Below, piece by piece: positions 35,090 to 56,432 of a stretch of DNA of 64,000 bases. Where the stretch lies: positions 62,001-126,000 of the forward strand of contig NZ_HE978532.1 in assembly GCF_000311745.1 (NCBI RefSeq), in the 5' to 3' direction. The position numbers and the translations under genes were made by a program. How positions within the stretch are numbered: the first letter of the stretch is position 1; each line of letters begins with the position of its first letter. Origin of the DNA: Anaerococcus obesiensis ph10 (GTDB lineage Bacteria > Bacillota > Clostridia > Tissierellales > Peptoniphilaceae). The notes under the pieces are model-generated. The model was not told the origin of the DNA. It did no database searches and saw only the letters and a program-made list of their open reading frames with translations.

Positions 35090-35201
35090 AAGAAGTTAAA
35101 ATCTGGTTTCTATTTTCAATTTTTATCATTAAAAAATTTTTAATTCCTAAATAGTTTTGATTGGTATGTGAAAAATTACAGTACAAAAACTTAATAAAAA
35201 A

Positions 35202-35225
35202 GATACTACCAATTAAGGTAGCATC
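35202..35225 (-). terminator. Terminator of the PTS operon
   Basis: GATACTACC-N6-GGTAGCATC with one mismatch, followed on the - strand by a run of T residues, 15 bases after the GH1 stop. Confidence 0.7.
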
Positions 35226-35239
35226 TCATAAAAGGTTTT

Positions 35240-36595
35240 TTATTTTAATAGAAATTTTTTAACCATAATTTTCAATGAAATTTTTGTACCAATATCCGCT
35301 TTTTTTATTTTTCTTTCGAATGTATCAAAGTCTACGCCTATTAGTCCATATCTTTTTTGATACCCATTTGTCCATGATAGTAAATCAATTGCAGACCATA
35401 CGTAATAAGCACTTATCTTTATATCTTTTTTTGCTTTTAAGTACTCTATTATTTCTATATGCCTTTTTATATAATAAATTCTTTCATCATCTTCAAAATT
35501 GCCATATTTATCAGGCTGATCATCAAATCCCATTCCATTTTCAGCGATTATAATTTCCATATCTTTATAGTCATTTTTAATGTGAAGTAAAAGATCTGAT
35601 AAGCCTTTAGGATAAATTTCCCAATCCCATTTAGTATACTGCCCTCCTGGAACTTTTATAAAATTAAATTTATCTTCAATAAGTTTTGAATCCAAATTTT
35701 TTGCTTCTATCACTCTTCTCATATAGTAATTTATGCCTAAATAATCGCCTATATTTTCTTTCATTAATTTTTTATCTTCTTCTGTTATTTGTGGTGAATT
35801 AAAATTACTCTTACAATATTCTAGCATATTTTTTGGATATTCCCCTGTTGTCGCTGGAGAAATATACCAATCGCATAAATAATCTTTTGCAAAATTTAAA
35901 GCTTCAATATTTTTTTCATTTTTTTCTAACAAATAACATGGCATCGGGTTTAATACTATTCCAATTTTTCCACTTAATTTCATTTGTCTAAATAGTTTTA
36001 TAACTCTTGCACTTGCAACATTAAAATTATGAGATACTTGAAGAGCTTCCTTATAAGAATTTTTCATTTGTGGTGGATGGCTAGCTTGAACATATCCTTC
36101 TATAACTTCTGACATAGGTTCGTTTATTGTTGCCCAAAGTGGAACCTTATCTCCAAATTCTTCGAATAAAATCTTCGAATAACTAACAAAGTTATCTATA
36201 ACTTCTTTATTTAACCATCCACCTTTATCCATAAGAGCTTGTGGCAAGTCCCAATGATATATTGTTACAAATGGAACAATATTATATTTTAATAGTTCAT
36301 TAATTAAATTCCTATAATAATTTAATCCTTTTTCATTTATTTTACCACTTCCATTAGGTAATATGCGTGCCCAAGAAATAGAAAATCTATAAGTTTCAAG
36401 CCCAATTTCATGAAATAATTTTACATCTTCTTTCATACGATTATAATGGTCTACTGCAATATTTCCATCATAACCCAAGTCATTTTTTTCATAAAAAACA
36501 TCCCAACTTGTTAGACCTTTTCCATCTTCTCTAACAGCTCCTTCAACTTGATAAGCAGCTGTTGCAGCTCCCCATAAAGTTTTATTCTTTACCAA
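35240..36595 (-). CDS. GH1 6-phospho-beta-glycosidase (TTG start)
   Basis: A 451-residue family 1 glycosidase cleaving 6-phosphorylated beta-galactosides or beta-glucosides inside the cell. Catalytic acid Glu in ATINEPM and nucleophile Glu in IIAENGMG are present. The loop SWTNGYQKRYG has Ser, Lys and Tyr at the spacing that binds the 6-phosphate in LacG/BglA enzymes, which fits its place behind a lactose/cellobiose-type PTS. No signal peptide. The start is TTG at 36595 with AAAGGAGG upstream, lying inside the original C-terminal coding sequence of EIIC. Galactosidase versus glucosidase cannot be told. Confidence 0.88.
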   Translation of the reverse strand: MVKNKTLWGAATAAYQVEGAVREDGKGLTSWDVFYEKNDLGYDGNIAVDHYNRMKEDVKLFHEIGLETYRFSISWARILPNGSGKINEKGLNYYRNLINELLKYNIVPFVTIYHWDLPQALMDKGGWLNKEVIDNFVSYSKILFEEFGDKVPLWATINEPMSEVIEGYVQASHPPQMKNSYKEALQVSHNFNVASARVIKLFRQMKLSGKIGIVLNPMPCYLLEKNEKNIEALNFAKDYLCDWYISPATTGEYPKNMLEYCKSNFNSPQITEEDKKLMKENIGDYLGINYYMRRVIEAKNLDSKLIEDKFNFIKVPGGQYTKWDWEIYPKGLSDLLLHIKNDYKDMEIIIAENGMGFDDQPDKYGNFEDDERIYYIKRHIEIIEYLKAKKDIKISAYYVWSAIDLLSWTNGYQKRYGLIGVDFDTFERKIKKADIGTKISLKIMVKKFLLK

Positions 36596-37954
36596 CTTCT
36601 TTTTCCTCCTTTAGTAATTGTTTCTCGTATGTTTTGAAAAATGGATACCACATCAAAATATCTAAAACAATTAAAAAATTATCCAAAAGAAAGCTATGAT
36701 ACTCATAGTTGCTATAGCTGCACCTATAGGTGCTGGTGTTGTCCAAGGAACATAAGTATAAGTTTTTCCTAAAATATCTAATTTCATCACAATATATGTT
36801 AAAATTCCATTAACAGTTTGAACTCCAATAAATGGTATCGCTAATACTGGATTTAAAACAATAGGAACACCAAAAATAATTGGTTCGTTAATGTTAAATA
36901 TAGATGGTAAAATTGCTAACTTACCTAATGTTCTCATTTGTTTATCTTTACTTCTTAGCATTAAAATATTTAATCCTATAGTAGCACCTGCCCCACCTAA
37001 TATCATAAAAAATGCACGGAATGGTTCAGTGTAAATAAATTCTGGTGCTAAACCTTTTGTTACAGCTTCTGCATTTGCTGCTAAATTTCCTAATTCAAAA
37101 GCTCCAACTAAACCACTTACAATTGATGAACCATGAAGACCAACTACCCATAATAATTGAGTTACAATTGAAATCAAAAATATTCCTACTACTGAATCGA
37201 CAGCAAATACAAAAGGTGAGAATAATTTCTTTATTAAATCTGGAATTAATAATCCACCAGTTAAAGATTGTACTAATAAACTAATCAAAAAAATACCAAC
37301 AACATTAACTACCAAAGGAATAATTGACGCAAATGATGCTTTAACTGGTTCTGGAACAGCATCTGGCATTTTTATAAGAAGTCCCCTATCTTGTAAAAAT
37401 CTTGTTGACTCCGTTACTAACAGTCCTATAATTATTGCTGTAAAAATTCCTTCTGCTCCCAAATAATTCATTGGTAAAGCCATACTTTGTCCTTCAAGAG
37501 CTTTTTCAATAGTTTTTGATTTGTTTAATATATCTGAAAATACAACAAGATTTGAAGGTGCTGATGTTATAAGAAATGAAACTGCTGCAATAATCATTGT
37601 ATTCATTGATTGCATTTTATAATGTTTAGCAAGTGAGTTTGAAATTGCCATACATACAAATAGAGCCATTAAACCCATTGATGATCTAAACAAAAGTTCT
37701 ATTCCTAAACCATGCTGTATTGCCCATTGCTTCCATGCAATTAAAAATTTAAAAAATATATTTGTAGGTTTCATAGTTTCCAAATTTACAGGAGGTGATG
37801 TTACAATTAATGTCATTCCACCCAATAATGCCACAGGTGTAGCAGCTACCATTCCATCACGAATAGCTTTTAAGTGAGGTTGATTTGAAATTTTTGCACC
37901 TAAAGGAACTAATTTATCGTTTAAAAACTTATTAAATTTGTTATTGCTTTCCAT
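36582..37954 (-). pseudogene. PTS lactose/cellobiose-family EIIC, C-terminal frameshift
   Basis: A membrane permease of the Lac/Cel PTS family: MESNNKFNKFLNDKLVPLGAK start, about ten helices, and the conserved NEPIIFG motif near residue 355. The current frame stops at 36671 after SIIAFFWIIF. The expected last helix and tail (Phe-Leu-Ile-Val-Leu-Asp-Ile-Leu-Met-Trp-Tyr-Pro-Phe-Phe-Lys, ending Lys-Glu-Val-Gly-Lys) are encoded in the next frame down to 36582. One missing T in the run at 36685-36688 would explain it. The truncated form loses about 30 residues; it could be impaired or the indel could be an error. Confidence 0.85.
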
Positions 37955-37957
37955 TTT

Positions 37958-39283
37958 TTACTCCTTTTTATTTTTTCTTAAAACTATTACATCATAATTA
38001 ATAATTTGATTATAATATTCATACTTATTATTTATTAAAAGTTTTCCATCACTAATTTTGCAATTATTTTCTACTCCCAATACATCTACATTATTTCCTA
38101 TTTCTTTCAAAAATTTATTTTCAATTTTAAATTCATTTTCTTTTTGCGGATTTATGAAATAATAATTAAATTCTTCATTTGTAGTACTATTAATAAATTT
38201 AAAATTTGCTCTAGTATTAAATATGGCTTCTCCACAAAATTCTAGCCATCTTCCTACTTCTTTTAGCCTTTCGACCTGTAATGTTGGTATTTGTCCATCT
38301 GCTCTTGGTCCAATATTTAATAAAAAATTTCCACCTTTAGAAACAGTTTTATATAATTTTTTAATTATTTCTTGACTTGTTAAATAGTCTTCTAGTTTTT
38401 CTAATCTATTATATCCGTATGATTTTCCTATCCCCCTACTTTCTTCAAATATATGATAACCTTCTAAAACCTTATCATTGTATTCGGTTGAAAAATAATC
38501 ACCGTGCTTTCCTTCCATCCCTTTATAAAATCGATCATTAACTACTACTTCGTCTTTTACTGGAGATTTGTTGTACAACCAGTATAAAAATTCTCTAATT
38601 TTAACTTCATCTTCCGTTAAATCCCATTCTCCACCATCGGCAAATATTAAACTAGGCTTAAATTTATTTACAATTTCATATAATTGTTTTTGCAGTACTT
38701 CTTTTAAATAAACTTCCTTAGATAATCCATATTTTTTTACATCTTTCATTGGTATGAAATATCTTCCATCACATCTGTGAGATGGTACACTCTCCCAATC
38801 AATAATTGAATAATAAAGCCCAAATTTTATGCCTTTTTTTCTAATAGACTCTGACAATTCTTTTACTAAATCTCTATGAGGACCTATGTCTGCACTATTC
38901 CAATTGACTTTGTGAACATTATCTGTTTTCCATAAACAAAATCCATCATGATGTTTTGATGTGAGTACAGCATATCTGGCTCCTGAATTTTTTATTATTT
39001 CAGCAAAAGAATCAGGATCAAATAATTCAGCTTTAAAATCATATCCAAATTCCCTATACTCTTTATTTCCATAAACTTTTTTATGAAATGAATCTTTATT
39101 ATCGCCATAATTTCCATAAACTGTGGCATAATACCATTCTGCATAAGAACCAAATTGTTTATCAACTACAGTTTTATATGAAGGAACGCTATATGGACCC
39201 CAGTGGATAAAAATTCCGAATTTTGCATTTGTGTACCAATCAGGCAAAGAACGATTATCTAAATAATCCCATGAATTTTTCAT
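37958..39283 (-). CDS. GH29 alpha-L-fucosidase (PTS operon copy)
   Basis: Removes alpha-linked L-fucose. The 441-residue protein begins MKNSWDYLDNRSLPDWY and shows GH29 motifs: FGIFIHWGPYSVPS, SYAEWYY, LTSKHHDGFCLW, FGLYYSIIDW, and LIFADGGEWDL with the Asp nucleophile. No signal peptide, so it acts in the cytoplasm on imported sugars. ATG 39283 follows GAGGATAGA and is preferred over TTG 39301, which overlaps EIIB. It is about half identical by eye to the second GH29 at 53959-55323. Lying between EIIB and EIIC, it points to import of a fucosylated disaccharide or trisaccharide. Confidence 0.92.
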   Translation of the reverse strand: MKNSWDYLDNRSLPDWYTNAKFGIFIHWGPYSVPSYKTVVDKQFGSYAEWYYATVYGNYGDNKDSFHKKVYGNKEYREFGYDFKAELFDPDSFAEIIKNSGARYAVLTSKHHDGFCLWKTDNVHKVNWNSADIGPHRDLVKELSESIRKKGIKFGLYYSIIDWESVPSHRCDGRYFIPMKDVKKYGLSKEVYLKEVLQKQLYEIVNKFKPSLIFADGGEWDLTEDEVKIREFLYWLYNKSPVKDEVVVNDRFYKGMEGKHGDYFSTEYNDKVLEGYHIFEESRGIGKSYGYNRLEKLEDYLTSQEIIKKLYKTVSKGGNFLLNIGPRADGQIPTLQVERLKEVGRWLEFCGEAIFNTRANFKFINSTTNEEFNYYFINPQKENEFKIENKFLKEIGNNVDVLGVENNCKISDGKLLINNKYEYYNQIINYDVIVLRKNKKE

Positions 39284-39290
39284 TCTATCC

Positions 39291-39611
39291 TCATTTATCA
39301 ATATTTTCTAGGATAATATTTTCCATATTTTTGACACCCATAGGTGTTGGGGCATAAGCATTAAAAGGTGTTTGAGCTATAATTTTTCCAAATTCGTCTG
39401 CATTTTTCTTATATTCATCAAAATACATTCTAATTTGTGGGCTCAATAGTATCATAGAATACTCATCAGATTTAAAAATATTTTCACTATTTGAAATTGT
39501 AGTTGCTTCTACATATATTTCATGTCCATCCTTTTGCAATTGCTTAGTTACTTCTTTTGCCATTAAAGAACTAGATAAACCTGCATTACATACAAGAATT
39601 ACTTTTTTCAT
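39291..39611 (-). CDS. PTS lactose/cellobiose-family EIIB
   Basis: A 106-residue phosphocarrier with the P-loop MKKVILVCNAGLSSSLMAKEV; Cys8 receives the phosphate from EIIA and passes it to the sugar at EIIC. PQIRMYF and PTPMGVKNM match the family. It begins 26 bases inside the end of the EIIA gene with GGAGGGGGAAT ahead of its ATG, so the two are coupled. Confidence 0.93.
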   Translation of the reverse strand: MKKVILVCNAGLSSSLMAKEVTKQLQKDGHEIYVEATTISNSENIFKSDEYSMILLSPQIRMYFDEYKKNADEFGKIIAQTPFNAYAPTPMGVKNMENIILENIDK

Positions 39612-39942
39612 ATTCCCCCTCCATTTTTTGTAATTTTTTATTTAATTTTATCCACCTTTTTGCATTTTCCATTGCCATGGTAGCCATTGTAAGATGATCT
39701 TGTGCATGGACTAATATAATGTTTATTTTATTTTTTTCTCCATTTGCTTCTTCTGTGAGCATATTTGTTTGAATTTCATGGCATTTTATAAATTCATCGT
39801 TAGCCTTTTTTAATAAAGATTTAGCCTCATCAAACTTATATAATTCTGCAGCATCCATAGCTTCTGATGATAAGCTTCTACTTTCTCCAGCATGGACAAT
39901 TATATTAAAGACTAACTCGTATACTTTTTGATTTTCATCCAT
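39586..39942 (-). CDS. PTS lactose/cellobiose-family EIIA
   Basis: A 118-residue helical-bundle protein: VFNIIVHAGESRSLSSEAMDAA, CHEIQTNML, and ILVHAQDHLTMATMAM with the phospho-accepting His. It transfers phosphate from HPr to EIIB. The ATG at 39942 is 13 bases after GGAGG in the last codons of the regulator gene, a rather long spacing. Second gene of the operon. Confidence 0.93.
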   Translation of the reverse strand: MDENQKVYELVFNIIVHAGESRSLSSEAMDAAELYKFDEAKSLLKKANDEFIKCHEIQTNMLTEEANGEKNKINIILVHAQDHLTMATMAMENAKRWIKLNKKLQKMEGEYEKSNSCM

Positions 39943-39950
39943 AAAACTAC

Positions 39951-41831
39951 TTATTCCTCCTTTAAAAATATCTTCATAAATTTTATTTTATCGTCAGCTG
40001 TTAGCGATTCTGATATAAGATTTCTATTTGATAAAAAATTTCCGAGTTTCTCATAGTAAAATTTCATATCTCCTATATCTTTTCCGATTACCAAGCTATA
40101 AATAAGCCTAATTTTTCTACCGTTCCAATCTATCGGTTTTTTTAAGATTATAATTATTGAATATGACTTTCCATCAACCTGGTCAAATATGTGTGGTATA
40201 GCAATATTATCAAAAGATGTTTGACCCATCTTTTCTCTGTCTATCAACTGTTTTAAAGCTTTATCATTTGGAAAATTTGATTTTGTAGAAATTTTTTCTG
40301 CTATATATTTTAGAACTTCATCCTTGTTTTTAAATAATCTATCTTTAACAAATATTGAGTTTGAAAATATATTGTATATCTCATCTAGATTAGAATTCTC
40401 AAATGCTAATTTCAATTTATTTAAATCACTTTTTGAAAAAATAACATCTACATATATTACTGACCTATCAAATTTATCGCTAATATTTACTGATGATATG
40501 ATCAAATCATATCTATCAATATCAAATTTTTTTAAATTTCTAACATCTGTTGTTGCTATGTTCTCAATATTTCCTTTAAATTGTTTCATAAGTTGTGATT
40601 TCATTATTTGAGCAGAAGAATTGCCTGATCCACATACTATAAGAATATTTTTCTTATTAGATGAATTATTACCGATTGCAGCCATTATATGTAATGCAAT
40701 ATATCCTATTTCGTCATCTGATAATTTTGTCATATATTTATCATTTATTATGTTTGAGCCGATTGTCGCTAACATAAAAGAAATCTTATCTTTTTTTATA
40801 TCTTCAAGTATAGGATTTTTCATATTAAATCCATATTTTATCCTATATATTAAAGGTCCAAGATGTGTTGCTAAAGCAAAATAAAATTCTATGTTTGATC
40901 TGAAATCATATTTTGATACCTTATATATCTCATCTATTATATCTTGAGATAACTTTAAGATTTCTGAAGATAATTTTTCTTGATCCCTAATCGTGTTTTT
41001 TGCAATTAGGTGCATGGTTATATATACTAATTCTTGATTTGGAATTTCTATTTCTAGTTTAGCTTTTAAGCTATCAACAATTTTATTTGCAATTTTGAAT
41101 TCTTCGTATGAAACAAGCTTTTTTTCTACTGATTTTGGCAATTTTACATATTCTTTTTGCTTAATTCTTAATATAGAAATATAGATATGGATAACTAAAT
41201 TTTTAAAATTAACATAAGGCATATAGTAATCTTCACCAAAATCTATATTATCTATTATTTCTTGAATTTTATTAAAAAGCTCTTTATTTTCATCACCATC
41301 AAAAAGTTTTGGATCTACTCCTATTTCATTTTTTATTGCAAGTCTTATATTTTTCTCGCTACCTTCAATTTTCATTCCATAATATGGTTTTGAAATTAAA
41401 TCTAGCTTGTAATTATTCAAAGTTTTTTTTATTATTGGTAAATCTTTATTTATTTGTGACTCACTTACATGAAAACTTTCAGCTAATTCATATTGCTTAA
41501 TATATGAACTAGAAAATAAAAACATTCTCAAAATATTTTCGTATCTGCTATCTTTATCACCTCCATCTTGTTGAAAGTAAGCATATTTATACCAATCATT
41601 TTTTAGGAAACTTTTAAATTTATCTTGATCCTTAATTTTGAATTTAAATCCCTTCCCTGTTTTAGACTCTATTATCGCTCCCTTATCTTTAATTACTAAG
41701 TTCAATAGATCTATCTCTTTTCTTATAGTTTTTGAAGATAATTCCATTTCTTTTCCTATATCTTTAGAGGTGTGATAATCATAGTCTAAAGTTAAGTAGT
41801 CGAATATTTGTTTCATTCTTGTTTCAATCAT
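39951..41831 (-). CDS. BglG/MtlR-type PTS-regulated transcription activator
   Basis: A 626-residue multidomain regulator. It has an N-terminal helix-turn-helix (residues 1-65, DIGKEMELSSKTIRKEIDLL), a second Mga-like helix-turn-helix (about 100-165, ELAESFHVSESQINKDL), PRD1 (about 185-285, with HIYISILRI and HLIAKNT), PRD2 (about 300-395, HLGPLIYRI and HIMAAIG), an EIIB-like domain (about 400-485, ILIVCGSGNSSAQ) and an EIIA-like domain (about 495-626, IAIPHIFDQ). Phosphorylation by the PTS should tune its activity. It is the first gene of the PTS/fucosidase operon and most likely activates it in response to the imported sugar. Confidence 0.9.
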   Translation of the reverse strand: MIETRMKQIFDYLTLDYDYHTSKDIGKEMELSSKTIRKEIDLLNLVIKDKGAIIESKTGKGFKFKIKDQDKFKSFLKNDWYKYAYFQQDGGDKDSRYENILRMFLFSSSYIKQYELAESFHVSESQINKDLPIIKKTLNNYKLDLISKPYYGMKIEGSEKNIRLAIKNEIGVDPKLFDGDENKELFNKIQEIIDNIDFGEDYYMPYVNFKNLVIHIYISILRIKQKEYVKLPKSVEKKLVSYEEFKIANKIVDSLKAKLEIEIPNQELVYITMHLIAKNTIRDQEKLSSEILKLSQDIIDEIYKVSKYDFRSNIEFYFALATHLGPLIYRIKYGFNMKNPILEDIKKDKISFMLATIGSNIINDKYMTKLSDDEIGYIALHIMAAIGNNSSNKKNILIVCGSGNSSAQIMKSQLMKQFKGNIENIATTDVRNLKKFDIDRYDLIISSVNISDKFDRSVIYVDVIFSKSDLNKLKLAFENSNLDEIYNIFSNSIFVKDRLFKNKDEVLKYIAEKISTKSNFPNDKALKQLIDREKMGQTSFDNIAIPHIFDQVDGKSYSIIIILKKPIDWNGRKIRLIYSLVIGKDIGDMKFYYEKLGNFLSNRNLISESLTADDKIKFMKIFLKEE

Positions 41832-41972
41832 TTAACCACCTCGTATAAATATTATAATAATTAAAAAAACAAATCTCCACACAAACATTTTCCTCATACT
41901 TATGGAAGTTTGATTTTTGAATTATATAATTTCTCTAATATAATTATAAGATAAGAGAATAAAGGAGTAATT

Positions 41973-44369: not shown

Positions 44370-44439
44370 GTTTTATTACTTTACTTATACCCAAACTTAA
44401 AAAATATGATTTTAAATTTTTTCAAAAATTTCATTCAAA

Positions 44440-44476
44440 AAAAATCTATATGCCGAATAAGACATATAGATTTTTA
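44440..44476 (-). terminator. Terminator of the fucose operon
   Basis: AAAATCTATATG-N10-CATATAGATTTT with T/A tails, about ten bases after the kinase stop codon. Confidence 0.85.
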
Positions 44477-44486
44477 AATTTATTTT

Positions 44487-46090
44487 TTACCTAATATTAT
44501 CATCAGCAAATCTTTGAATAGGCAAATATTTTTTGTAATCATTTAAAAATTTGTCAAAGCTTTTTATTATTTTATCATCAGCAAGCTCGGTATATTTTGA
44601 TTGATTTGCAAACAAAAACTTTTCCAAAAAATCATCCAATGATTTGTAATCATCTTTTTTATCCATATACATAGCTAAGCAAGCCATTCCCCAACAACCG
44701 CCTTCACTTGCTGATTTGTATATAGAAACATTTGTATTTAAAGCTGATGCAACAATTTTTTGCATAACTTTTTTTGTTTTAAAAACGCCTCCATGAGCAT
44801 ACATTTGTTTTATTTGTATATTTTCTTTTTCCGTCAGTATATCTTGACCAATTCTAATACTTGCCATAATGGAGTAAAGATTTGCCAATATAAATTTTGA
44901 AAGGCTTGGAGTATTAGACTTATCTCTAATTATCATTGGTAAGCCATCAAGCACCTTATTAATAGGCTCTCCTGATAAATAATTAAAAATAGTAAAACCA
45001 CATTCATCATCAACTGCTTCCAAGGCTTTATTGAATAAATAGGAATATATTCCTCCTTTTTCAGAAAAATCAATTTTTAAATCTAAAGCAAATTCTTTAA
45101 AAATATTTAACCACGCATCAAAATCAGCCGTACCATTATTACAATGAACCATAGCAACTGGTTTGCCATCAGGTGTTGTAACCAAGTCTATTTCTTTATA
45201 ATATTTTTCTAATTGATGATCCAAAACTATCATAGAAAATATAGACGTACCAATAGAAATATTTCCTGTATTTTCTCTAATAGTATTTGTTGCAATCATA
45301 CCAGTCCCTGCGTCGCCTTCTGGTGGACAAAAATTTATTGACGCCTTTAACTCTCCATCAATATCTAATATTTTCGCTCCTTTTTCTGTAAGCTTTCCTG
45401 CACACTCCCCTGCAACCATAACTTTTGGCAAAATATCTTGCAATTTTATTCCAAGATTTTTAATCTCATCTAAATCATTTGTTTTTTCAAAAAATCTTTA
45501 TTATAATTTAAGCTATCATCCACAGGAAATATTCCAGAAGCATCTCCTATGCCTACAACTTTTTTGCCTGTTAGCAAATAATGTATATATGATGATAGGG
45601 TACAAATATAATCAACATCTTTTACAAAATTTTCTTTATTCAATATAGCCTCATAAAAATGGGCAAAAGACCATCTATGAGGAATGTTATATTCATAAAG
45701 TTCACTCAAAAACAAACTTGCCTTATCAGTATTAGTATTTCTCCACGTTCTAAAAGGAGTAAGTAAATTCATATTTTTGTCAAAAGCCAAAAGTCCATGC
45801 ATCATCGCAGAAATTCCAATGGCTTTAAAATTTGAAATTTTATAGCCATAATCTTTAAAAATATTTTCCTTTAAATTTTTAAATGAACTTTGAAGCCCCT
45901 TTGTCAATAAATCAAAATCATAAGTCCAATAGCCATTTTCAAATTTACTTTTCCATTCATATATTCCATTAGAAATTATTTTTGCTCTATTATCAATCGC
46001 TATAGCTTTTATCCTAGTAGATCCAAGCTCAATTCCTAAATAAATATTATTTTCTTTGACTTTTTCCAAAAATAAATCTTTATCGTACAT
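44487..46090 (-). pseudogene. FGGY-family carbohydrate kinase, frameshifted
   Basis: Two frames together make one sugar kinase of about 535 residues. The first (ATG 46090, MYDKDLFLEKV; IYLGIELGSTRIKAIAID; GISAMMHGLLAFD; TPFRTWRNTNT) ends with a stop at 45470 after Lys-Gln-Met-Ile. The second continues from Thr-Asn-Asp-Leu-Asp-Glu through MVAGECAGKLT, NISIGTSIFSMIV and MYAHGGVFKTK to a stop at 44487. The shift lies in T6/A6 runs at 45482-45494, where one extra base restores the frame. Sugar specificity is unclear; being last in the fucose operon it may act on a related ketose. Probably inactive unless the indel is an artefact. Confidence 0.85.
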
Positions 46091-46109
46091 TTTCCCTCCA
46101 CAAATAAAA

Positions 46110-46148
46110 GCTGTTGCCAATAAAATTAAAATTTTATATAGCAACAGC
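46110..46148 (-). terminator. Hairpin between fucA and the kinase gene
   Basis: GCTGTTGC and GCAACAGC enclose a 22-base A/T loop, followed on the - strand by TTTTATTTG. It could terminate or attenuate the operon before the damaged kinase. Confidence 0.65.
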
Positions 46149-46156
46149 TAATTTAA

Positions 46157-46804
46157 TTATTCTTTTACTTGTCCATATTCTTTAAATTTAACAAGCATTT
46201 TTGTCATTTCATCGTCATCTAAAATAACAGGTTTTCCAATAGATTTTGCCATGTAATATATTTTTGCACAATACTCAACTTCATCAATTATATTAAAGGC
46301 ATTCGCAAGCGAATAAGAGCCAGATAATATTCCGTGATTTGCAAGTAAAACTGCATATCTATCTTTCATAGCTTCATAAGCATTTTCTGCTAATTCTTTT
46401 GTACCAAATGTTGCATACTCTGCACACTTTACATCAACTCCTGCAACAGCTATCATATAATGAGCAGGTGGCAAAGTTTCTCTTAAAGTTGCTACAACGG
46501 TACTATAAGTTGTATGTGCATGAATAACTGCTGTTATATCATCTCTATTTTTATATTGGATTGCATGCATATACCATTCGCTTGAAGGTTTTTTATCCCC
46601 TTCTAAAATAGTACCATCTAGTTTCATAGTTACTATATCTTCTACTTTAATATCAAAAAAATCAATTCCTGAAGGAGTAATCAACATTTTTTCTTCTGAT
46701 GGAATATATACACTTAAATTTCCACCTGTTCCTTTAGTTAATCCTACTTCTACTAATTTTTTTCCATATTCAATTAACTCTTGTTTTAAATTTTCATGTG
46801 ACAT
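46157..46804 (-). CDS. fucA: L-fuculose-1-phosphate aldolase
   Basis: Splits L-fuculose-1-phosphate into DHAP and L-lactaldehyde. The 215-residue class II aldolase has TKGTGGNLSVYI, ITPSGIDF, PSSEWYMHAIQY with the catalytic Glu, VIHAHTTYSTVVAT with two zinc His, and LLANHGILSGS with the third. Normal length. Next gene after the RbsA::RbsB chimera in the fucose operon; its product feeds FucO at 56433-57581. Confidence 0.92.
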   Translation of the reverse strand: MSHENLKQELIEYGKKLVEVGLTKGTGGNLSVYIPSEEKMLITPSGIDFFDIKVEDIVTMKLDGTILEGDKKPSSEWYMHAIQYKNRDDITAVIHAHTTYSTVVATLRETLPPAHYMIAVAGVDVKCAEYATFGTKELAENAYEAMKDRYAVLLANHGILSGSYSLANAFNIIDEVEYCAKIYYMAKSIGKPVILDDDEMTKMLVKFKEYGQVKE

Positions 46805-46817
46805 TTTTTTTCCTATT

Positions 46818-48581
46818 TTATTCGTATAGTAGTGATTTTACTTCTTTACTATCAATATTTTCAGCGTTATACCAAACTGCTCCTGTATCAATATCTTCTA
46901 CTTTTTCACCTTTTGAAGCTTTAACTGCAAGCTCAACTGCTTTGTATCCTATAGAAATTGGATCTTGTGTAATTGAACCAAATAAAACACCTTTTTTGAT
47001 TGCGTCGATTTGGATTGCACCAGAGTCAAAACCAACTCCTATAATTTTATCTTTTCCAAGTTTTCCACCAACAGCATTGTCAGCATTTATAATAGATTTT
47101 GCTGCAAATTCGTTAGAACCGTAAATTGCTATTAAGTCTTCTTTGTTTAATAAAGTTTGTGCTTGAGTTTGTCCTTCTGCATCAGTTACGTTAGCTGGAA
47201 CTGCTAAATCTATTACTAAAGCAGCATCTTTTTCTTTTACATCATTTGCAAATTTATCATTACCTACAACAGCGATTTTATCTTTTAAATTGTCAAGTTT
47301 TGAAGCTTGTTCAACCATTTTATCTATAAAACCTTTTGTTCTATCACTGATTGATGCTGAGTTTACTTCTTGAGAAACAACTCCAACTCTTACTTTTTTA
47401 TCAACTGAAGCTTTTTTCAATTTTGCTTCTATTTCTGGATATAATTTATCAGCTGCCATGGCTGAAGCTGCTATATTATCTGTAGCTGCTGTAGCTTTAA
47501 TTGTTCCTTCTGGAGCATTTGGAACACCAGAATCAAATCCAACTACTGGAATTTTATCATCTTTTGCTTGTTTTAATAAATCAATTGATGCTTTTGTATC
47601 TAAAGCTGCGTATGCTATAGCTGCTGGTTTTTTGTTATATAATAAAATTTCTCCTGAGTCTAATTTATCTGCACCAAATATAGCTCTTGCAACTTCTGTT
47701 CTTCCAGAGCCCATTAAGCCTGCCATTCCAAGAATTTCTCCTTTTTTTAGAACAAAACTTACATCTCTAATTTTTTTGCCTCTGTTAAGATTTTTTACTT
47801 CAAGAACAACTGCCGCATTATCTGCAATACTTGATTTTGTTTTTGGTTCAACATAAGAAACTCTACCAACCATCATATTGATAAGTTCATCTCTACTTGT
47901 TTCTTTTGTATTTACAGTTCCTACATATCCACCATCTCTTAGAACAGTAATTCTATTAGATATTTTTCCTATTTCATCCATCCTGTGTGAAATATAAATT
48001 ATTCCAACGCCCTTTTTTTGTAAGCGATCAATAACTTTAAATAAATGTCCAATTTCTTCTTCTGTTAATGATGATGTAGGTTCATCAAATACAATAACAT
48101 TTGCATTTAAAGATATAGCTTTGGCAATTTCTGTCATTTGTTGGATGCCAACTGGCAACTCTCCAACTACAGTTCTAGGATCTACGTCAACTTCAAGAAT
48201 TTTGAAAAGCTCTTTTGATTTTTCAATCATCTCTTTGTCGTTTATAATCTTACCATTCATAGATTCTCTTCCAATAAATATATTTTGTGCTACTGTAAGA
48301 TCATTTAGCATATTTAATTCTTGATGAACTATCGCAATTCCTACTTCTTGTGCTTGTTTAGTATTGTCAAATTTAACATCTTTTCCTAGATAAGTCACTG
48401 TTCCACTTTCAAGTGAATAAACACCTGTAAGTATTTTCATTAAAGTTGATTTTCCAGCTCCATTTTCTCCCATCAAGGCATGAACTTCGCCAGATTTCAA
48501 CTCTAAGTTTACATTATTTAAAGCCTTAACATTTCCAAAAGTTTTGGTAATATTTTGCATTTTTAATAAAACTTGTTCCAT
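46818..48581 (-). CDS. Chimeric RbsA::RbsB protein (ABC ATPase fused to sugar-binding protein)
   Basis: One 587-residue frame joins two proteins that are normally separate. Residues 1-318 are the first part of an RbsA/MglA-type ATPase: Walker A GENGAGKST, signature PVGIQQMTEIAKA, Walker B VIVFDEPTSS, then the start of the second nucleotide domain (GLMGSGRTEVARAIFG). From about residue 320 the sequence is RbsB-like: AYAALDTKASIDLLKQAKDDKIPVVGFDSGV, ATAATDN, IIGVGFDSGA. The rest of RbsA, the RbsC permease and the RbsB signal and first lobe are missing, as expected from an in-frame deletion near 47627. Without permease or signal peptide it cannot transport; ABC uptake here is probably lost. Confidence 0.88.
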   Translation of the reverse strand: MEQVLLKMQNITKTFGNVKALNNVNLELKSGEVHALMGENGAGKSTLMKILTGVYSLESGTVTYLGKDVKFDNTKQAQEVGIAIVHQELNMLNDLTVAQNIFIGRESMNGKIINDKEMIEKSKELFKILEVDVDPRTVVGELPVGIQQMTEIAKAISLNANVIVFDEPTSSLTEEEIGHLFKVIDRLQKKGVGIIYISHRMDEIGKISNRITVLRDGGYVGTVNTKETSRDELINMMVGRVSYVEPKTKSSIADNAAVVLEVKNLNRGKKIRDVSFVLKKGEILGMAGLMGSGRTEVARAIFGADKLDSGEILLYNKKPAAIAYAALDTKASIDLLKQAKDDKIPVVGFDSGVPNAPEGTIKATAATDNIAASAMAADKLYPEIEAKLKKASVDKKVRVGVVSQEVNSASISDRTKGFIDKMVEQASKLDNLKDKIAVVGNDKFANDVKEKDAALVIDLAVPANVTDAEGQTQAQTLLNKEDLIAIYGSNEFAAKSIINADNAVGGKLGKDKIIGVGFDSGAIQIDAIKKGVLFGSITQDPISIGYKAVELAVKASKGEKVEDIDTGAVWYNAENIDSKEVKSLLYE

Positions 48582-48599
48582 AAATCCTCCGAATTTATT

Positions 48600-49028
48600 T
48601 TATTTTACTACACCTTTTTTGAGGATTATGTTAGCATAAAGAGCTGTTTCGCCAGTGTGAACTACTGCAAAAGCCTCTTTTGCTCTTTCGTAGAATTTAA
48701 ATCTTTCTATATTTCCTATAGTATAATTTTCTTTAGATTCATCTAATACTTTTTTATAATCTTCCCATATTTCAGGCTTATAAGTATCGCCCGGAGTTAC
48801 TTCCATTAAGAAAACTTGTTCGTCTGAATAATCAGTATCAAGAGGGAAAAGAACTAATATAGATTTTAATAAATCCGTAACTCCGGTACTATCACATCTA
48901 ACAACTTTATCGTTAATTCTTTCAGATGGAAAATTTCCATCTGAAAGAACTATTTCATCACCATGTCCCATTTCATCTAGAACTTTTAAAAGCTCTGGTG
49001 AAATATTTTTTGGAATATTTTTTAGCAT
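48600..49028 (-). CDS. fucU: L-fucose mutarotase
   Basis: Interconverts alpha- and beta-L-fucose. The 142-residue FucU/RbsD-fold protein shows MLKNIPKNISPELLKVLDEMGHGDEIVLSDGNFP in its first 35 residues, the catalytic His in GHGDEI, and FAVVHTGETALYANIILKKGV at the end. Lies between fucI and the chimeric gene, ten bases after fucI. It speeds delivery of the right anomer to FucI after glycosidase release. Confidence 0.95.
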   Translation of the reverse strand: MLKNIPKNISPELLKVLDEMGHGDEIVLSDGNFPSERINDKVVRCDSTGVTDLLKSILVLFPLDTDYSDEQVFLMEVTPGDTYKPEIWEDYKKVLDESKENYTIGNIERFKFYERAKEAFAVVHTGETALYANIILKKGVVK

Positions 49029-49037
49029 TGCTTGCTC

Positions 49038-50822
49038 CTAACCTTTGTATAGTGGTCCAAAATATTCACAAGCTCTATAATCTACACTTTCAAGATCTTT
49101 TGTACCAAATCCATTAAATGTTTGTGGTCTAAATACATCTTTATCTTCAACGTTGTGTAATGAAACTGGAATTCTTAACATACTTGCTAAAGTTATGAAG
49201 TCTGCTCCTACGTGTCCATAAACTGTTGCCCCGTGATTTGCTCCCCAGTTTGCCATTACTTTATATACTGATTCAAATCCTTCCATGCCTAAACGTGGTG
49301 CAAACCATGTAGTTGGCCAGGTTCTATCTGTTCTATCTTCTAGAATTTGTGATTCTTTATCTGGAAGATTTACTGTATATCCTTCAGCAATTTGAATTGT
49401 TGGACCAACGCCTTCTACCATATTAACTCTTACCATAGTAACTGGCATTTCTGCATTTGTTCTAAAGTGTGATGAGAATCCGCCGCCTCTAAAATATTGG
49501 TGGTTTGCTTGACACCAATCTGTGTTATCAAGCATTGCTTTTATATCTTCATCTTTTAAATCCCAGAAATGTTTCATTATAGAATTTCCGTCATCATCTT
49601 TTGCAGCTCCTGTTGCATCTAAGCAAGTAGCTCCTGAATTTATTAAGTGGATAATTCCATCTTGACCTTTTCCTTCTAATTGATAGCCTGTAACTCTTTT
49701 AACAGAATCTTTTGACCAATATGTTCTAACATCTGAGAATATTGGAGCTCTGTTTGTTAAAAGTGTTCCAAACAACATTGCAACTCCATTTAATGTATCA
49801 TTTTCTGTTGCGAATGCTGTTGGAGCTTTTGGTCCATTCCAATCAAAAGTTGATGCCATAATTGATTCTGTAAAGTCAGCATTTGGTAACCAATCTGTCC
49901 ATTGTCTTTGACCTTGGAATCCTCCTGCTATAGCATTTTTACCTAGTGCTTCTTCTGACCAACCAATTTCTGCAAGCTTTGGATTTCCAAATAAAATATC
50001 TCTTACTATTAGGGCATGTTTTAAACAGAAATCCCATTCTTCTTCGTAAGGTACAACTTTTGATCTCATTAGATTTTCTTGTAACTCTAATGTTTCATTT
50101 ATATTAAATCCTTCTTTAATATATTCTTTTTGCCATTTTTTAGCTTTTTCAAATTCTTCATGATCATAAATTCCTAGTTTCATTCTTCTAAGAATTTCTG
50201 TCATGTCTACCCATTCAGTTCTCATTCCCAAATAATTTTGGAAGAAAAGTGCGTTTGCGTCAGAACCTGCTATACCCATAGAGATTGCACCAATATTTAC
50301 ATAAGCCTTATCTCTCATTTGTCCAACAGCGATAGCAGCTCTTGCAAATCTTAGAATTTTTTCTTTTACATCATCTGTAATTGAATTATCATCTGCTTCT
50401 TGAACTTCTGAGCCATAAATTGAAAATGCAGGAAGTCCTCTTTGTGCATAAGCTGACATTACAGCTGCAAGATAAACAGCTCCTGGTCTTTCAGTTGCGT
50501 TTAATCCCCAAACAGCTTTAAGTGTTTTTGGATCTAAATCCATTGTTTCTGTACCATAGCACCAGCAAGGTGTAACGCTTAAAGTTGCTACAACATTTTC
50601 TGTTGAAAATTGCTCAGCACATTGTTTACTTTCTGCAGAACCTCCTATTGTTGTATTTGAAATTACACATTCTACAGGTTCTCCATCAGCATATCTTAAA
50701 TTAGATTCGATTAATTCTTTTGCAAGATGTGCCATGTTCATTGTTTGTTCTTCAAGGCTTTCTCTAACTCCGCCCCATCTTCCGTCAATTATAGGTCTAA
50801 TACCAATTCTTGGATGTGTCAT
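49038..50822 (-). CDS. fucI: L-fucose isomerase
   Basis: Converts L-fucose to L-fuculose using manganese. A 594-residue full-length enzyme starting MTHPRIGIRPIIDGRWGGVRESLE. Metal-ligand regions are visible: AISMGIAGSDAN, FATENDTLNGV, FSDVRTYWS with the ligand Asp, and GATVYGHVGADFITLASML with the ligand His. Second gene of the fuc operon, 20 bases after fucK. L-fucose isomerases also accept D-arabinose. Confidence 0.97.
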   Translation of the reverse strand: MTHPRIGIRPIIDGRWGGVRESLEEQTMNMAHLAKELIESNLRYADGEPVECVISNTTIGGSAESKQCAEQFSTENVVATLSVTPCWCYGTETMDLDPKTLKAVWGLNATERPGAVYLAAVMSAYAQRGLPAFSIYGSEVQEADDNSITDDVKEKILRFARAAIAVGQMRDKAYVNIGAISMGIAGSDANALFFQNYLGMRTEWVDMTEILRRMKLGIYDHEEFEKAKKWQKEYIKEGFNINETLELQENLMRSKVVPYEEEWDFCLKHALIVRDILFGNPKLAEIGWSEEALGKNAIAGGFQGQRQWTDWLPNADFTESIMASTFDWNGPKAPTAFATENDTLNGVAMLFGTLLTNRAPIFSDVRTYWSKDSVKRVTGYQLEGKGQDGIIHLINSGATCLDATGAAKDDDGNSIMKHFWDLKDEDIKAMLDNTDWCQANHQYFRGGGFSSHFRTNAEMPVTMVRVNMVEGVGPTIQIAEGYTVNLPDKESQILEDRTDRTWPTTWFAPRLGMEGFESVYKVMANWGANHGATVYGHVGADFITLASMLRIPVSLHNVEDKDVFRPQTFNGFGTKDLESVDYRACEYFGPLYKG

Positions 50823-50842
50823 ATTATTTCCTTTCTTAATTT

Positions 50843-52258
50843 TTATTTTATAATAGGTAAATATTCAACCGTTTTAAAACCGTCAGTTACTATTTGCCTA
50901 ATATTTTCTTTTTCATTCATGTATTCTAATTGAGCTAAAATGTTTCCAACAGCCGTAGCTTCCTTTGGTCCTGCTATAACTTTAATTTTAAGTTTGTCGG
51001 CTATCATTTGACATAATACCTTGGATTGAGAGCCCCCACCCATTACATGAATTTTTGTAAATTTTTCACCTAAACAGCTTTCAATATTTTCAACAACTGA
51101 TTTGTAATTTTCAACTATGCTTTGATATATTATTTTGAAATAATCTGTTTTTTCTTTTATGACTTTATTTTCTTTTTCCTCAAAATACTTATCTAAATCA
51201 TAAATAAAATTATTAGATTCCTTAGTGAAAACTTCATAATCGACATCAATTATATATTCATCACTAATAGTGGAATTTTCTACAAGATTTGTTATTTCAT
51301 CAAAAGAAAACTTACTTTTATCTTTTTTTACTAGGTGATCTCTAAGCTTTTCTATTAAATATAAACCTGTTACATTTTTGAAAAACATATTTTTATTATC
51401 ATAACCGGTTTCATTTGTGAGCGAATAATTATAAGCTTGGTCTGTTAAAATCGGCTTATCATTACAACAACCAATCAAAGACCATGTTCCACTTGATAAA
51501 AACAAGCAATCCTCATTTGTATAAGATTCGGTAACATAAACAGCACTTGCTGTATCATGACTTGCAACAGAAATTACCTTTATGTCCAAATCTCTAAGAG
51601 AATCTATCAAGGAGTTTTTTGTACTTCCAATAACAATTTTATTATTAATTATCTCTGGCAATAAGTCCTCATTAAGACCTAAATCCTTAACTAATTTCCT
51701 ATTCCAATCACCAGCTTTTAGGTCAAACATTTGACTTGTTGAACAAATAGTTATCTCACCATATTTTTTGCCTGTAAGCAAATAATTTATAAGATCAGGT
51801 GTCATCAATAATTTATCTGCTTTTTCATAGAAATCATTATTTTCTATTTTTACAGTTTCTAATTGAAATAAGGTGTTAATACTCATTATTTGATTGCCAG
51901 TTTTTTTGAACAAGTCGCTGAAATCGATTTTCTCTTTCATTGATTTAAAGCCTATTTCACAAGATTCATCCCTATAAGATGTAGGGTTATAAATAAGAGA
52001 ACCAGCCTTATCAATTAATCCAAAATCTACTCCCCAAGTATCAACTCCAATAGTTTCAATTTCATCTTTGTATTCTAAAATTGTATTTTCTATTTTAGAA
52101 AGCATCCCTTCTAAATCCCACTGTTTTCTTCCATCAATATCTTTAATAACATGGTTAAATCTAATTACTTCTTCAGTTACAAGTTCTCCCATATCTATGT
52201 AGCCAAGAATTGCTCTAATAGAAGTAGCTCCCATATCTATGGCTAAAGATTTTTTCAT
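50843..52258 (-). CDS. fucK: L-fuculokinase (RhaB-like FGGY kinase)
   Basis: Phosphorylates L-fuculose to L-fuculose-1-phosphate. A 471-residue FGGY kinase: LAIDMGATSIRAILGYI, TIGVDTWGVDFGLID, SYRDESCE, SVASHDTASAVY, SSGTWSLIG and HVMGGGSQSKVLCQM. Its sequence is of rhamnulokinase type, as in many Firmicutes fucose operons, and the fucI/fucU/fucA context decides the substrate. First gene of the operon, ATG after GAGGAGGTGTAA, with its own operator-rich promoter. Confidence 0.88.
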   Translation of the reverse strand: MKKSLAIDMGATSIRAILGYIDMGELVTEEVIRFNHVIKDIDGRKQWDLEGMLSKIENTILEYKDEIETIGVDTWGVDFGLIDKAGSLIYNPTSYRDESCEIGFKSMKEKIDFSDLFKKTGNQIMSINTLFQLETVKIENNDFYEKADKLLMTPDLINYLLTGKKYGEITICSTSQMFDLKAGDWNRKLVKDLGLNEDLLPEIINNKIVIGSTKNSLIDSLRDLDIKVISVASHDTASAVYVTESYTNEDCLFLSSGTWSLIGCCNDKPILTDQAYNYSLTNETGYDNKNMFFKNVTGLYLIEKLRDHLVKKDKSKFSFDEITNLVENSTISDEYIIDVDYEVFTKESNNFIYDLDKYFEEKENKVIKEKTDYFKIIYQSIVENYKSVVENIESCLGEKFTKIHVMGGGSQSKVLCQMIADKLKIKVIAGPKEATAVGNILAQLEYMNEKENIRQIVTDGFKTVEYLPIIK

Positions 52259-52295
52259 TTACACCTCCTCATGATAATGTTTTCTTATCGCATGT

Positions 52296-52343
52296 ATGAT
52301 ATCATTTATATCAGCTTTTGTAAATATTGAAACAAATATTTAC
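52296..52343 (-). promoter_or_regulatory. fucK promoter with two inverted repeats
   Basis: TTTACA (52324-52319), a 17-base spacer and TATCAT (52301-52296) on the - strand. One inverted repeat, TGATAT-N5-ATATCA (52297-52313), covers the -10 box. A second, GTAAATATT-N6-AATATTTAC (52320-52343), covers the -35. They are candidate operators for the fucose regulator or catabolite control. The rest of 52344-52482 shows only A/T-rich DNA. Confidence 0.6.
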
Positions 52344-52482
52344 ATTAATTCAAAATAATTCAAATTAAATTTCAAAACCATTCATTGTTCCCACAATTAT
52401 AATTGCCTTTGCAACTATAAAATCATAATTTTTTCTAATTTAAAATATACCAAGCTTTCAGCACATGGAAATAAAGAACAAT

Positions 52483-52518
52483 AAAATGCCAGAGCTTATT
52501 CTTAAAGTTCTGGCATTT
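52483..52518 (-). terminator. Terminator of the GH29-NhaC operon
   Basis: AAATGCCAGA-N-TCTGGCATTT with a long loop and TTTTATT tail on the - strand, 35 bases after the transporter stop codon. Confidence 0.75.
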
Positions 52519-52550
52519 ATACAATAATATATTTTACTTAATTTTTTATA

Positions 52551-53972
52551 TTATATATTTTCAATTTCATCATAGAAACAATTCTTTCCTGTAATAGCCC
52601 ATATAATAGCAATAACAAAGTTTATAAAATGCATAAACATAAATGGAACATACTCAGCATATGGCACCCCTAATGTTGTTGACATGTAAATCCCTGTTGT
52701 TGTCCATGGTAAAAGTGGTTCAATCATAGTTCCAAAGTCTTCTATTGATCTACTCAAAACTTTTAATGGAATTTTCTGATCTCTATATTTTTGTTTAAAG
52801 GCATTTCCAACAATCATAGCTGTTGCGTACTGATTAGATGTTGTTCCATTAATAATCGCTGAAGAAATTTGGGATGCGATTATTGTTTTTGACCTTGTAT
52901 TTATATTTGTAAAGATTGAATCCATCAACACTTCCATTGTGTTAAGAACATTTATAGCACCTATAAAAATAAATACCCATATTGTGATCGTTACTGCATT
53001 AGTCATGCTGGCCATGCCGCCTCTGGTAAGTATCACTGATACGCTTTCCGGTATGTTATTTGACCAAGTTATCATGTCTATATTGAATCCATTGGTTAAG
53101 GTTTCATACATATTATCAAATGTAAAGTTTTGAACTGCTAGTCCTAATATACACGCAACAACTACTGATGATAGTGTCGCAACTAATGAAGGTTTTCTCA
53201 TTATAGAACCAACTAAGATTATTATAGGTGGTAGTAGTAATAGAATATTAAAATTAAATATGCTATCTAATGATAAAAGTATAGGTTCAACAAATGAAGA
53301 TGTATCCACGGACTTAACAGGATATACTATACCAATAATTAAATATATAATCGCTGATATAATTATTGAAGGGCCTGTAGTTCTCAACATAGAGCTAACA
53401 TGATCCCTAACATCTACACCTGCACCCATAGCAGCCATAATAGTTGTATCTGATATTGGTGACTGTTTATCTCCAAAATAACAACCACTTATTATTGCTG
53501 AAGCTAGTATGGCTTGATTGGCATTTATAGCACTTCCGATTGCTATCAAAACTATTCCTATTGTTCCAGCAGAGCCCCATGAGGTTCCTGTCAGTATAGA
53601 GAATAACGCACATAGGAATAAAGCAATAACATAAATTAAATTTGGATTTATTATTTTCAATCCATAATAAACTAACATAGGTATTGTTCCAGAAAACACC
53701 CAAGCGCCAACTAATAAACCGATAGCTAAAAGCATGTGTATAGCAGGTAATGCTTCTAGAGTTTTTTCTCCTACACTTTTTTGAATCTCCTCCCAACTAA
53801 TACCATTTATAAGCATAAAAAATATGGTTATAATGGAAGCAAATACGAATATCAATTCTAATGGCATAGAGGACTTATCTAGTGCTTGAGGTCTAATCAC
53901 CATACCATAAAGTATTAGTAACATTAATACAAAAAAAGGAAAAAGCGATTTAGATTTACTATTTTTTGTCAT
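52551..53972 (-). CDS. NhaC-family transporter
   Basis: A 473-residue membrane protein with about 11-12 helices of the NhaC/MleN type. Family features are LTGTSWGSAGTIGIVLIAIG (re-entrant region), SGCYFGDKQSPISDTTIMAA with its charged residues, and INGTTSNQYATAMIVGNAF. NhaC proteins exchange Na+ for H+, and relatives such as MleN couple Na+/H+ to malate/lactate. The gene starts 14 bases inside the GH29 gene, so they are translationally coupled. A role in sugar or fermentation-product exchange is therefore plausible; simple sodium export is the alternative. Confidence 0.88.
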   Translation of the reverse strand: MTKNSKSKSLFPFFVLMLLILYGMVIRPQALDKSSMPLELIFVFASIITIFFMLINGISWEEIQKSVGEKTLEALPAIHMLLAIGLLVGAWVFSGTIPMLVYYGLKIINPNLIYVIALFLCALFSILTGTSWGSAGTIGIVLIAIGSAINANQAILASAIISGCYFGDKQSPISDTTIMAAMGAGVDVRDHVSSMLRTTGPSIIISAIIYLIIGIVYPVKSVDTSSFVEPILLSLDSIFNFNILLLLPPIIILVGSIMRKPSLVATLSSVVVACILGLAVQNFTFDNMYETLTNGFNIDMITWSNNIPESVSVILTRGGMASMTNAVTITIWVFIFIGAINVLNTMEVLMDSIFTNINTRSKTIIASQISSAIINGTTSNQYATAMIVGNAFKQKYRDQKIPLKVLSRSIEDFGTMIEPLLPWTTTGIYMSTTLGVPYAEYVPFMFMHFINFVIAIIWAITGKNCFYDEIENI

Positions 53973-55323: not shown

Positions 55324-55375
55324 AATTATTAACCTTTCTAATCATTTAGTTATACAACATTATTTAAAGTAAATG

Positions 55376-56367: not shown

Positions 56368-56370
56368 AAA

Positions 56371-56399: not shown

Positions 56400-56432
56400 G
56401 AACTAAAATAAACTATTTTAAAGGAGAAAATT

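Follow-up and report, generated by a model that had tools for sequence, protein, structure and literature searches.

Fucose has no 6-hydroxyl group, and for that reason the handling of fucosylated sugars by a phosphotransferase system (PTS) is an open puzzle, which Lactobacillus casei, a species that reportedly excretes the fucose, bypasses by not phosphorylating. In its alf operon (alfB, alfR, and alfEFG), a GH29 fucosidase is combined with a mannose-class PTS, and the transport of fucosyl-N-acetylglucosamine (fucosyl-GlcNAc) is uncoupled from phosphorylation, according to the accessible part of the report (PMC6109692). The locus considered here lies in a 64,000-nucleotide stretch of contig NZ_HE978532.1 of Anaerococcus obesiensis ph10 (hereafter, the window). 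The host belongs to Anaerococcus and is closely related to A. vaginalis; its genome (G000) comprises 2.04 Mb in 5 contigs and scores as 92.3% complete. At 35240–41831, a PRD regulator, the enzyme IIA, IIB, and IIC components of a PTS, a GH29 fucosidase, and a GH1 glycosidase form a putative operon. As in alf, a predicted cytoplasmic GH29 is genetically tied to a PTS for what would be a fucosyl-sugar. Unlike in alf, the PTS is of the Lac class and is accompanied by a predicted phospho-glycosidase, an enzyme that is not named for the alf cluster in the part of the source available. A preliminary description of the locus had already set it apart from the L. casei fucosyl-GlcNAc PTS, and the contrast proves stronger than claimed, as the L. 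casei system is both mannose-class and non-phosphorylating (PMC6109692, seen in part). Judging from sequence comparison, we put at roughly two in three the probability that the operon encodes a route dedicated to the uptake and breakdown of a small fucosylated beta-glycoside.

Other described systems share single aspects of this arrangement. The lac operon of L. casei and L. lactis (LacFE, LacG) likewise pairs a Lac-class PTS with a GH1 enzyme of the 6-phospho-beta-galactosidase type, and in L. casei this PTS imports lactose and N-acetyllactosamine (LacNAc). It differs in that no fucosidase is mentioned in the accessible text, and in that the L. lactis type carries lacABCD (PMC5940811); the GH1 loop, too, is shorter here. 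The L. casei gnb operon also couples a phosphorylating PTS to a phospho-beta-galactosidase for host-type disaccharides; however, its PTS is of the mannose class, its enzyme belongs to GH35, and the available portions of the papers mention no fucosidase (PMC6109692, PMC10629584). In the fucose operons of Streptococcus pneumoniae, fucose pathway genes occur with a PTS or, in another allele, with an ATP-binding cassette (ABC) transporter and a fucosidase; as far as the source could be consulted, that PTS is mannose-class with an unproved substrate, and the fucosidase belongs to the ABC allele (PMC3302838). Thus, the fucoside-linked PTSs found in the literature are of the mannose class (PMC6109692, PMC3302838, both in part), and a survey of mucin-glycan pathways in gut genomes names the Aga and Gnb PTSs and, in its accessible part, no fucoside PTS (PMC5583593). 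A literature search, with subscription literature largely outside its scope and sources partly accessible, returned no operon in which a Lac-class PTS is joined by GH29 and a 6-phospho-GH1. With a fucosidase, a Lac-class PTS, and a phospho-glycosidase combined, the neighbouring hexose is the predicted site of phosphorylation. The enzyme families themselves are known; put together, they predict a distinct chemistry and point to a route to host sugars that is so far uncharacterised.

Families were assigned with Pfam and NCBIfam models at their curated cut-offs, and the reading frames and families of the preliminary description were confirmed for all six genes, each on the minus strand:

39951..41831, minus strand: PRD-domain transcriptional regulator (helix-turn-helix, Mga-type helix-turn-helix, two PRD, IIB-like, and EIIA-2 domains; Pfam PF00874 over the curated cut-off)
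39586..39942, minus strand: PTS Lac-class IIA (PF02255 over cut-off; TIGR00823 below its cut-off)
39291..39611, minus strand: PTS Lac-class IIB (PF02302 and PRK09590 over cut-off)
37958..39301, minus strand: GH29 alpha-L-fucosidase (PF01120 Alpha_L_fucos, 338 bits, over cut-off)
36671..37954, minus strand: PTS Lac-class IIC (PF02378 PTS_EIIC and TIGR00410, lacE subfamily, over cut-off)
35240..36595, minus strand: GH1, predicted 6-phospho-beta-glycosidase (PF00232 over cut-off)
35200..35227, minus strand: terminator-like hairpin 3' of GH1, the sole hairpin detected in 35000–42100
41851..41879, minus strand: promoter-like hexamers directly upstream of the PRD regulator (10/12 matches; weak evidence)

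The genes are tightly packed. The regulator and IIA are 8 bases apart, IIA and IIB overlap by 26 bases, IIB and GH29 overlap by 11, and GH29, which sits between IIB and IIC, is followed by IIC after 3 bases. A gap of 75 bases separates IIC from GH1 in the window, whereas the two genes overlap by 14 in the copy of A. vaginalis PH9. The argument from the hairpin is its position, as the count (1 found vs 1.7 expected in shuffles) is not above chance, and promoter-like sites are abundant in this AT-rich region (65 found vs 49.5 expected). This layout is consistent with co-transcription of the six genes, probably under the control of the PRD protein. The divergent HAD phosphatase gene at 41973–42788 was considered as a further member and rejected, as it belongs to a core stretch also present in G036, a genome of the same species that lacks the operon.

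All the features of a Lac-class PTS (a class that we take to be TC 4.A.3) that were looked for were found. IIC scores 292 bits against a cut-off of 236 with TIGR00410, which assigns it to the lactose/cellobiose subfamily, and it carries NEP at 356 and LHG at 273, presumably the Lac-class IIC motifs. The cysteine of a VCNAG motif near the N-terminus of IIB and the histidine of IIA, in an HAQDH motif beginning at His79, are the residues that we assume to be phosphorylated. An Enzyme I gene scored over the cut-off in 3/3 genomes tested.

The closest PDB relatives of the operon GH29 are 7pls and the Thermotoga maritima fucosidase (TmFuc), which score far above 3ues and 3mo4, a pattern that may bear on its placement in subfamily A or in the alpha-1,3/4-specific subfamily B. 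In the alignment, D222 occupies the position of the TmFuc nucleophile and E273 that of the acid/base, as we take these catalytic residues to be numbered, and both the D and the E are kept in the A. vaginalis copy (NZ_HE978617; 94% identical), in a second GH29 of the window (52% identical), and in the G951 and G932 relatives discussed below. No hydrophobic signal was seen by eye at the N-terminus; hence, the enzyme is predicted to be cytoplasmic. AlphaFold models were poor for both hydrolases, with a mean predicted local distance difference test score (pLDDT) of 47.4 for GH29 (3-sequence alignment) and 40.5 for GH1 (2-sequence alignment).

GH1 was compared with an annotated enterococcal LacG, to which it is 38% identical, with E. 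casseliflavus BglC, with another enterococcal GH1, and with E. coli BglA. Its catalytic pair is E159 and E352 in this alignment, and S407/K414/Y416 align with the phosphate site S428/K435/Y437 of LacG, in a numbering that we in part assume. The Ser and Tyr positions are Glu and Phe in the non-phospho glucosidases 4hz6 and 3cmj. The Ser/Lys/Tyr phosphate-binding loop noticed earlier is thereby borne out. In addition, N289 and W408 match LacG Asn297 and Trp429 (numbering from PMC10360150), where E. coli BglA has Ser and Phe; according to the accessible text, the Asn/Trp pair separates 6-phospho-galactosidases and one dual (galactose/glucose) group from 6-phospho-glucosidases (PMC10360150). GH1 shares these markers and the phosphate site with the dual 6-phospho-glycosidases Gan1D and BlBglC; however, those enzymes are reported, in the same partly accessible source, with a lid motif (PMC10360150), and the loop is shorter here.

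In the proposed route, IIC would import the fucosylated beta-glycoside while IIB phosphorylates a 6-hydroxyl group, which would have to be that of the non-fucose hexose because fucose has none. In the cytoplasm, GH29 would remove L-fucose, and GH1 would then cleave the remaining 6-phospho-beta-glycoside, probably a galactoside (e.g., derived from fucosylated lactose, LacNAc, or an H/Lewis-type di- or trisaccharide) and possibly a glucoside. The released fucose would pass to FucI, a kinase, FucA, and FucO. The substrate, its phosphorylation, and the order of the two hydrolases are those that we infer from the gene content. The sequence gives no preference among 2'-fucosyllactose, H-type sugars, and fucosyl-GlcNAc, the candidates of the preliminary description. 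Alternatively, transport might be uncoupled from phosphorylation, as the L. casei fucosyl-GlcNAc PTS operates according to the part of the report consulted (PMC6109692), with GH1 acting elsewhere. We regard this as very unlikely, since the L. casei PTS is mannose-class, whereas a Lac-class system and an enzyme with a phosphate site share the operon here.

The operon recurs in rearranged form. GH29 was searched in overlapping sets of 130 family, 249 order, 391 class, and 398 phylum genomes. Within the family, 14/130 genomes matched at E ≤ 0.001, and beyond the host genome the only strong match was in A. vaginalis PH9 (G037); the remaining family matches either covered most of the domain at no more than 33% identity or were short pieces. 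At E ≤ 1e-60, five genomes besides the host's own remained, namely G037, G951, G932, G198, and G185. G037 carries the same operon as the window (locus L030), and a scan of genome contigs with GH29 alone returned that single locus. G951, which belongs to another family of the same order, encodes PRD, IIB, IIA, IIC, GH1, and GH29, in this order and on one strand. Compared with the window, its IIC (61%), GH1 (57%), and GH29 (58%) are well conserved, its GH29 being slightly nearer to the second GH29 of the window (59%), and its GH1 has the same site residues and short loop. By contrast, identity falls to 32% for IIA, which has HAEDQ in place of HAQDH, 33% over 61 residues for IIB, and 27% for the PRD regulator (92% in G037). 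Such a conserved trio beside divergent carriers and regulator implies that the substrate-facing IIC, GH1, and GH29 travel as a unit. IIC is 98% identical to the G037 copy and at most 40% identical to other IICs of the genus, and at E ≤ 1e-80 IIC matched its own genome only among the 391 class genomes. In a tree of 15 IIC sequences, which carries a long-branch warning elsewhere, the window, L030, and G951 form one clade with 100/99 support. As judged by eye, the neighbours of the G951 operon are an RpoN-like gene beside the regulator and, where the operon ends, a cluster of glycolysis genes (L082, 14358–17800).

These patterns bear on the alternative that the PTS and GH1 make up an ordinary Lac/Cel system for unfucosylated beta-glucosides or lactose, with GH29 coupled in regulation only and fucosylated sugars entering through another transporter. 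The membership of IIC in the lactose/cellobiose subfamily suits this alternative, as do the other sugar-transporter genes in the nearby fucose block. Plasmid and phage collections held only relatives below 60% identity; the neighbourhoods examined were those of three GH1 matches on enterococcal plasmids, and 3/3 had a Lac-class PTS beside GH1 and no GH29. Such a system would leave unexplained, however, why GH29 is embedded between IIB and IIC here and stands beside GH1 in G951, why IIC, GH1, and GH29 recur together while carriers and regulator differ, and why this IIC forms a distinct clade. We therefore consider the ordinary system improbable.

The dedicated fucoside route also draws on the genomic setting, in which two blocks are absent from G036:

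35095..41905, no strand: block spanning the operon, absent from same-species G036, which has 34 bases instead (genome alignment)
44408..57745, no strand: fucose-catabolism block, absent from G036, which has 167 bases instead (genome alignment; Pfam, NCBIfam)
49038..50822, minus strand: L-fucose isomerase FucI (NCBIfam over cut-off)
48600..49028, minus strand: L-fucose mutarotase FucU (NCBIfam over cut-off)
46157..46804, minus strand: L-fuculose-phosphate aldolase FucA (PRK06833 over cut-off)
50843..52258, minus strand: FGGY kinase, presumed fuculokinase (best model rhamnulokinase, below cut-off)
56433..57581, plus strand: lactaldehyde reductase FucO (NCBIfam over cut-off)
53959..55323, minus strand: second GH29, 52% identical to the operon GH29

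Outside both blocks, the window and G036 are 96–99% identical. The fucose block thus holds FucI, FucU, FucA, FucO, two kinases (one split), an ABC remnant, the second GH29, and an NhaC-type antiporter. An orthologous IIC occurs in 2/31 genus genomes, the same two that have an orthologous GH29, and fucI occurs in 4/31, both operon carriers included; by our own count, this would happen by chance about once in 78, although the two carriers are close kin. In G037, the fuc genes lie on another contig than the operon, whose GH29 is the sole GH29 match of that genome, so the link between operon and fuc genes is not one of mere adjacency. The nearby fuc genes to which the preliminary description assigned the fucose are indeed present (FucI, FucU, FucA, and FucO over their cut-offs, with the FGGY kinase); it is their nearness that is not conserved. 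The proposed coupling of GH29, a Lac-class PTS, and a 6-phospho-glycosidase is thus upheld by the operon structure, the catalytic residues, the rearranged G951 copy, and, across the small number of genomes at hand, the joint presence and absence with fuc.

Substitution patterns add to this picture. The operon DNA is 92.6% identical to that of G037, and the flank on the hcp side is 86.9% identical. Synonymous divergence (dS) from G037 is 0.19–0.33 for GH1, IIC, GH29, IIB, and IIA, 0.545 for the PRD gene, and 0.51–0.66 for three flanking genes, while the ratio of nonsynonymous to synonymous divergence (dN/dS) is 0.04–0.12 for all six operon genes, indicating purifying selection. The lower dS of the distal genes relative to the flanks, together with the low dN/dS, suggests that the distal part was exchanged after the lineages split and that it is functional. 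Within the fucose block, the kinase gene at 50843–52258 has a dS to G037 of only 0.015, compared with 0.27–1.08 in five other genes of the block, which marks a very recent exchange.

Several results weigh against the dedicated route. The survey of the gene set in other genomes that had been proposed at the outset gave a divided answer: the set is present in G037 and G951, but strong GH29 matches had a PTS gene set beside them in only 2/5 genomes, two lacked it, and one could not be judged. As seen by eye, the GH29 of G198 lies near a FucU-like gene with no PTS within 20 kb, and no PTS is present on the 11.8 kb contig of G185; in G932, the genome that could not be judged, the matching contigs measure 3.1 and 4.3 kb and carry no PTS. 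Likewise, fucI is found in 2/29 operon-less genus genomes, and the co-occurrence of operon and fucI is weak and not independent, as the two carriers are close kin. For GH1, it is the site residues that argue for a 6-phospho substrate; whole-sequence scores do not support it. The enzyme scores below every NCBIfam equivalog cut-off, with GH1 beta-glucosidase as the best model (441.6 vs 478.5 bits) and the LacG equivalog TIGR01233 at 325.5 bits (cut-off 561.2), and its top PDB matches are mostly non-phospho beta-glucosidases, with the 6-phospho-glycosidase Gan1D lower. The loop between N289 and the T-x-W motif spans 32 residues, compared with 46 in LacG and 46–50 across LacG and the two other enterococcal enzymes; E. 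coli BglA, a 6-phospho-glucosidase, has a loop about as short. A lid over the active site is ascribed to 6-phospho-galactosidases in the available part of PMC10360150, and we read the short loop as the absence of that lid, the two being equated by position only.

The fate of the products poses a further difficulty for a galactoside substrate. No match to the lacB model exceeded the cut-off in G000, G036, or G037, in a search for galactose 6-phosphate isomerase in which an enterococcal LacA was compared with selected loci only and G000 is 92% complete; as a control, 1/14 genomes scored over the cut-off, presumably L. lactis. The search returned just one RpiB-like match in G000 (87 bits) and one in G036, and a second match in G037 reaches 134.5 bits. 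LacD-like proteins of 368–381 bits (cut-off 432) occur in all three genomes, each beside a LacC-like kinase; in G000 these genes, away from the operon, also adjoin a sugar isomerase/deaminase-like gene by eye, and the locus may serve N-acetylgalactosamine use. A complete tagatose 6-phosphate pathway was therefore rejected for want of recognised lacAB, and galactose 6-phosphate, if formed, is without an evident first catabolic step. Nevertheless, lactose and LacNAc still support slow growth of L. casei lacAB mutants, which the authors credit to the other sugar (PMC5940811, accessible in part), so the missing isomerase is not fatal to the galactoside version. Here, the cell could still draw on fucose and the aglycone.

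The difficulty would disappear with a glucoside substrate. If the imported sugar were a fucosylated beta-glucoside, GH1 would yield glucose 6-phosphate, no isomerase would be needed, and both the failure to recognise one and the BglA-like loop of 32 rather than 46 residues would follow; GH1 enzymes with the Asn/Trp pair can, moreover, be dual, according to the consulted part of the source (PMC10360150). We hold this version to be unlikely, though worth keeping in view, since N289/W408 is the galacto-type pair, for which BglA has Ser and Phe. Common host fucosylated sugars, furthermore, have galactose or GlcNAc next to fucose.

The reading frames of IIC and GH1 are disturbed at their ends, which also counts against a working route in this strain. 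The operon block differs from that of G037 by five indels: two are one-base differences within T or A runs close to where IIC and GH1 end, one is at the IIA–IIB junction, and two short ones precede the regulator. IIC has 427 residues in the window and 457 in L030, corresponding to a stop 30 residues early, and the GH1 tail differs as well. The three blocks shared with G036 amount to about 14 kb and contain three single-base indels, of which one falls in a T run. The differences at the IIC and GH1 ends look like homopolymer sequencing errors, though they could be real. In the latter case, the window copy would be a decaying remnant, broken at IIC and GH1 and non-functional in this strain, and the FGGY kinase that is split in the window would fit such decay. 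There is little probability in this, as both differences are in homopolymer runs, the catalytic parts are intact, and dN/dS is low. Indel-rich long-read assemblies often score low in completeness, as does this 5-contig genome at 92.3%. In A. vaginalis PH9 (L030, 9361–10011), IIA and IIB form one fused open reading frame through a one-base difference.

A dedicated fucoside route could account for differences between strains of anaerobic cocci in how they use fucosylated host glycans. More speculatively, and with the odds on balance against it, fucosylated oligosaccharides may here have a phosphorylating PTS of their own, of a type not recognised before. Its Lac-class IIC would accommodate the fucose branch and phosphorylate the inner galactose of 2'-fucosyllactose or of H- or Lewis-type sugars, and a lid-less GH1 and a cytoplasmic GH29 would finish the breakdown. 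Such a cassette would be spreading with fucose catabolism among Tissierellales and would open secretor-type glycans, at the level of individual strains, to some vaginal cocci.

Further features were observed in the window, among which the coiled-coil, prophage, and lacto-N-biose phosphorylase genes were kept apart from the operon analysis. In the fucose block, the gene for the NhaC-type Na+/H+ antiporter is paired with the cytoplasmic second GH29 (52551–55323), and the same pairing occurs in G932 (L083, 135–3003), where the two proteins are 33% and about 60% identical, respectively; the antiporter might transport fucosides, which would be unexpected for its family. At 46818–48581, a single open reading frame begins as an MglA-type ABC ATPase and ends as an MglB-type sugar-binding protein; the G037 sequence is longer here by about 1.9 kb, pointing to an in-frame deletion or an assembly fault in the window. 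The split FGGY kinase gene occupies two open reading frames at 44487–46144, and a DeoR-type regulator at 55858–56367 is cut down to its C-terminal sensor domain. Beyond the block, 57746–64000 holds a lacto-N-biose phosphorylase cluster (GH112 over cut-off, GalE, a nucleotidyltransferase, and ABC parts) that is also present in G036. Phage-like genes fill 1–11334 and end, by eye, in an integrase adjoining tRNA-Leu, and a long open reading frame at 25803–29366 encodes a coiled-coil, surface-protein-like product of 1187 residues with no Pfam match.

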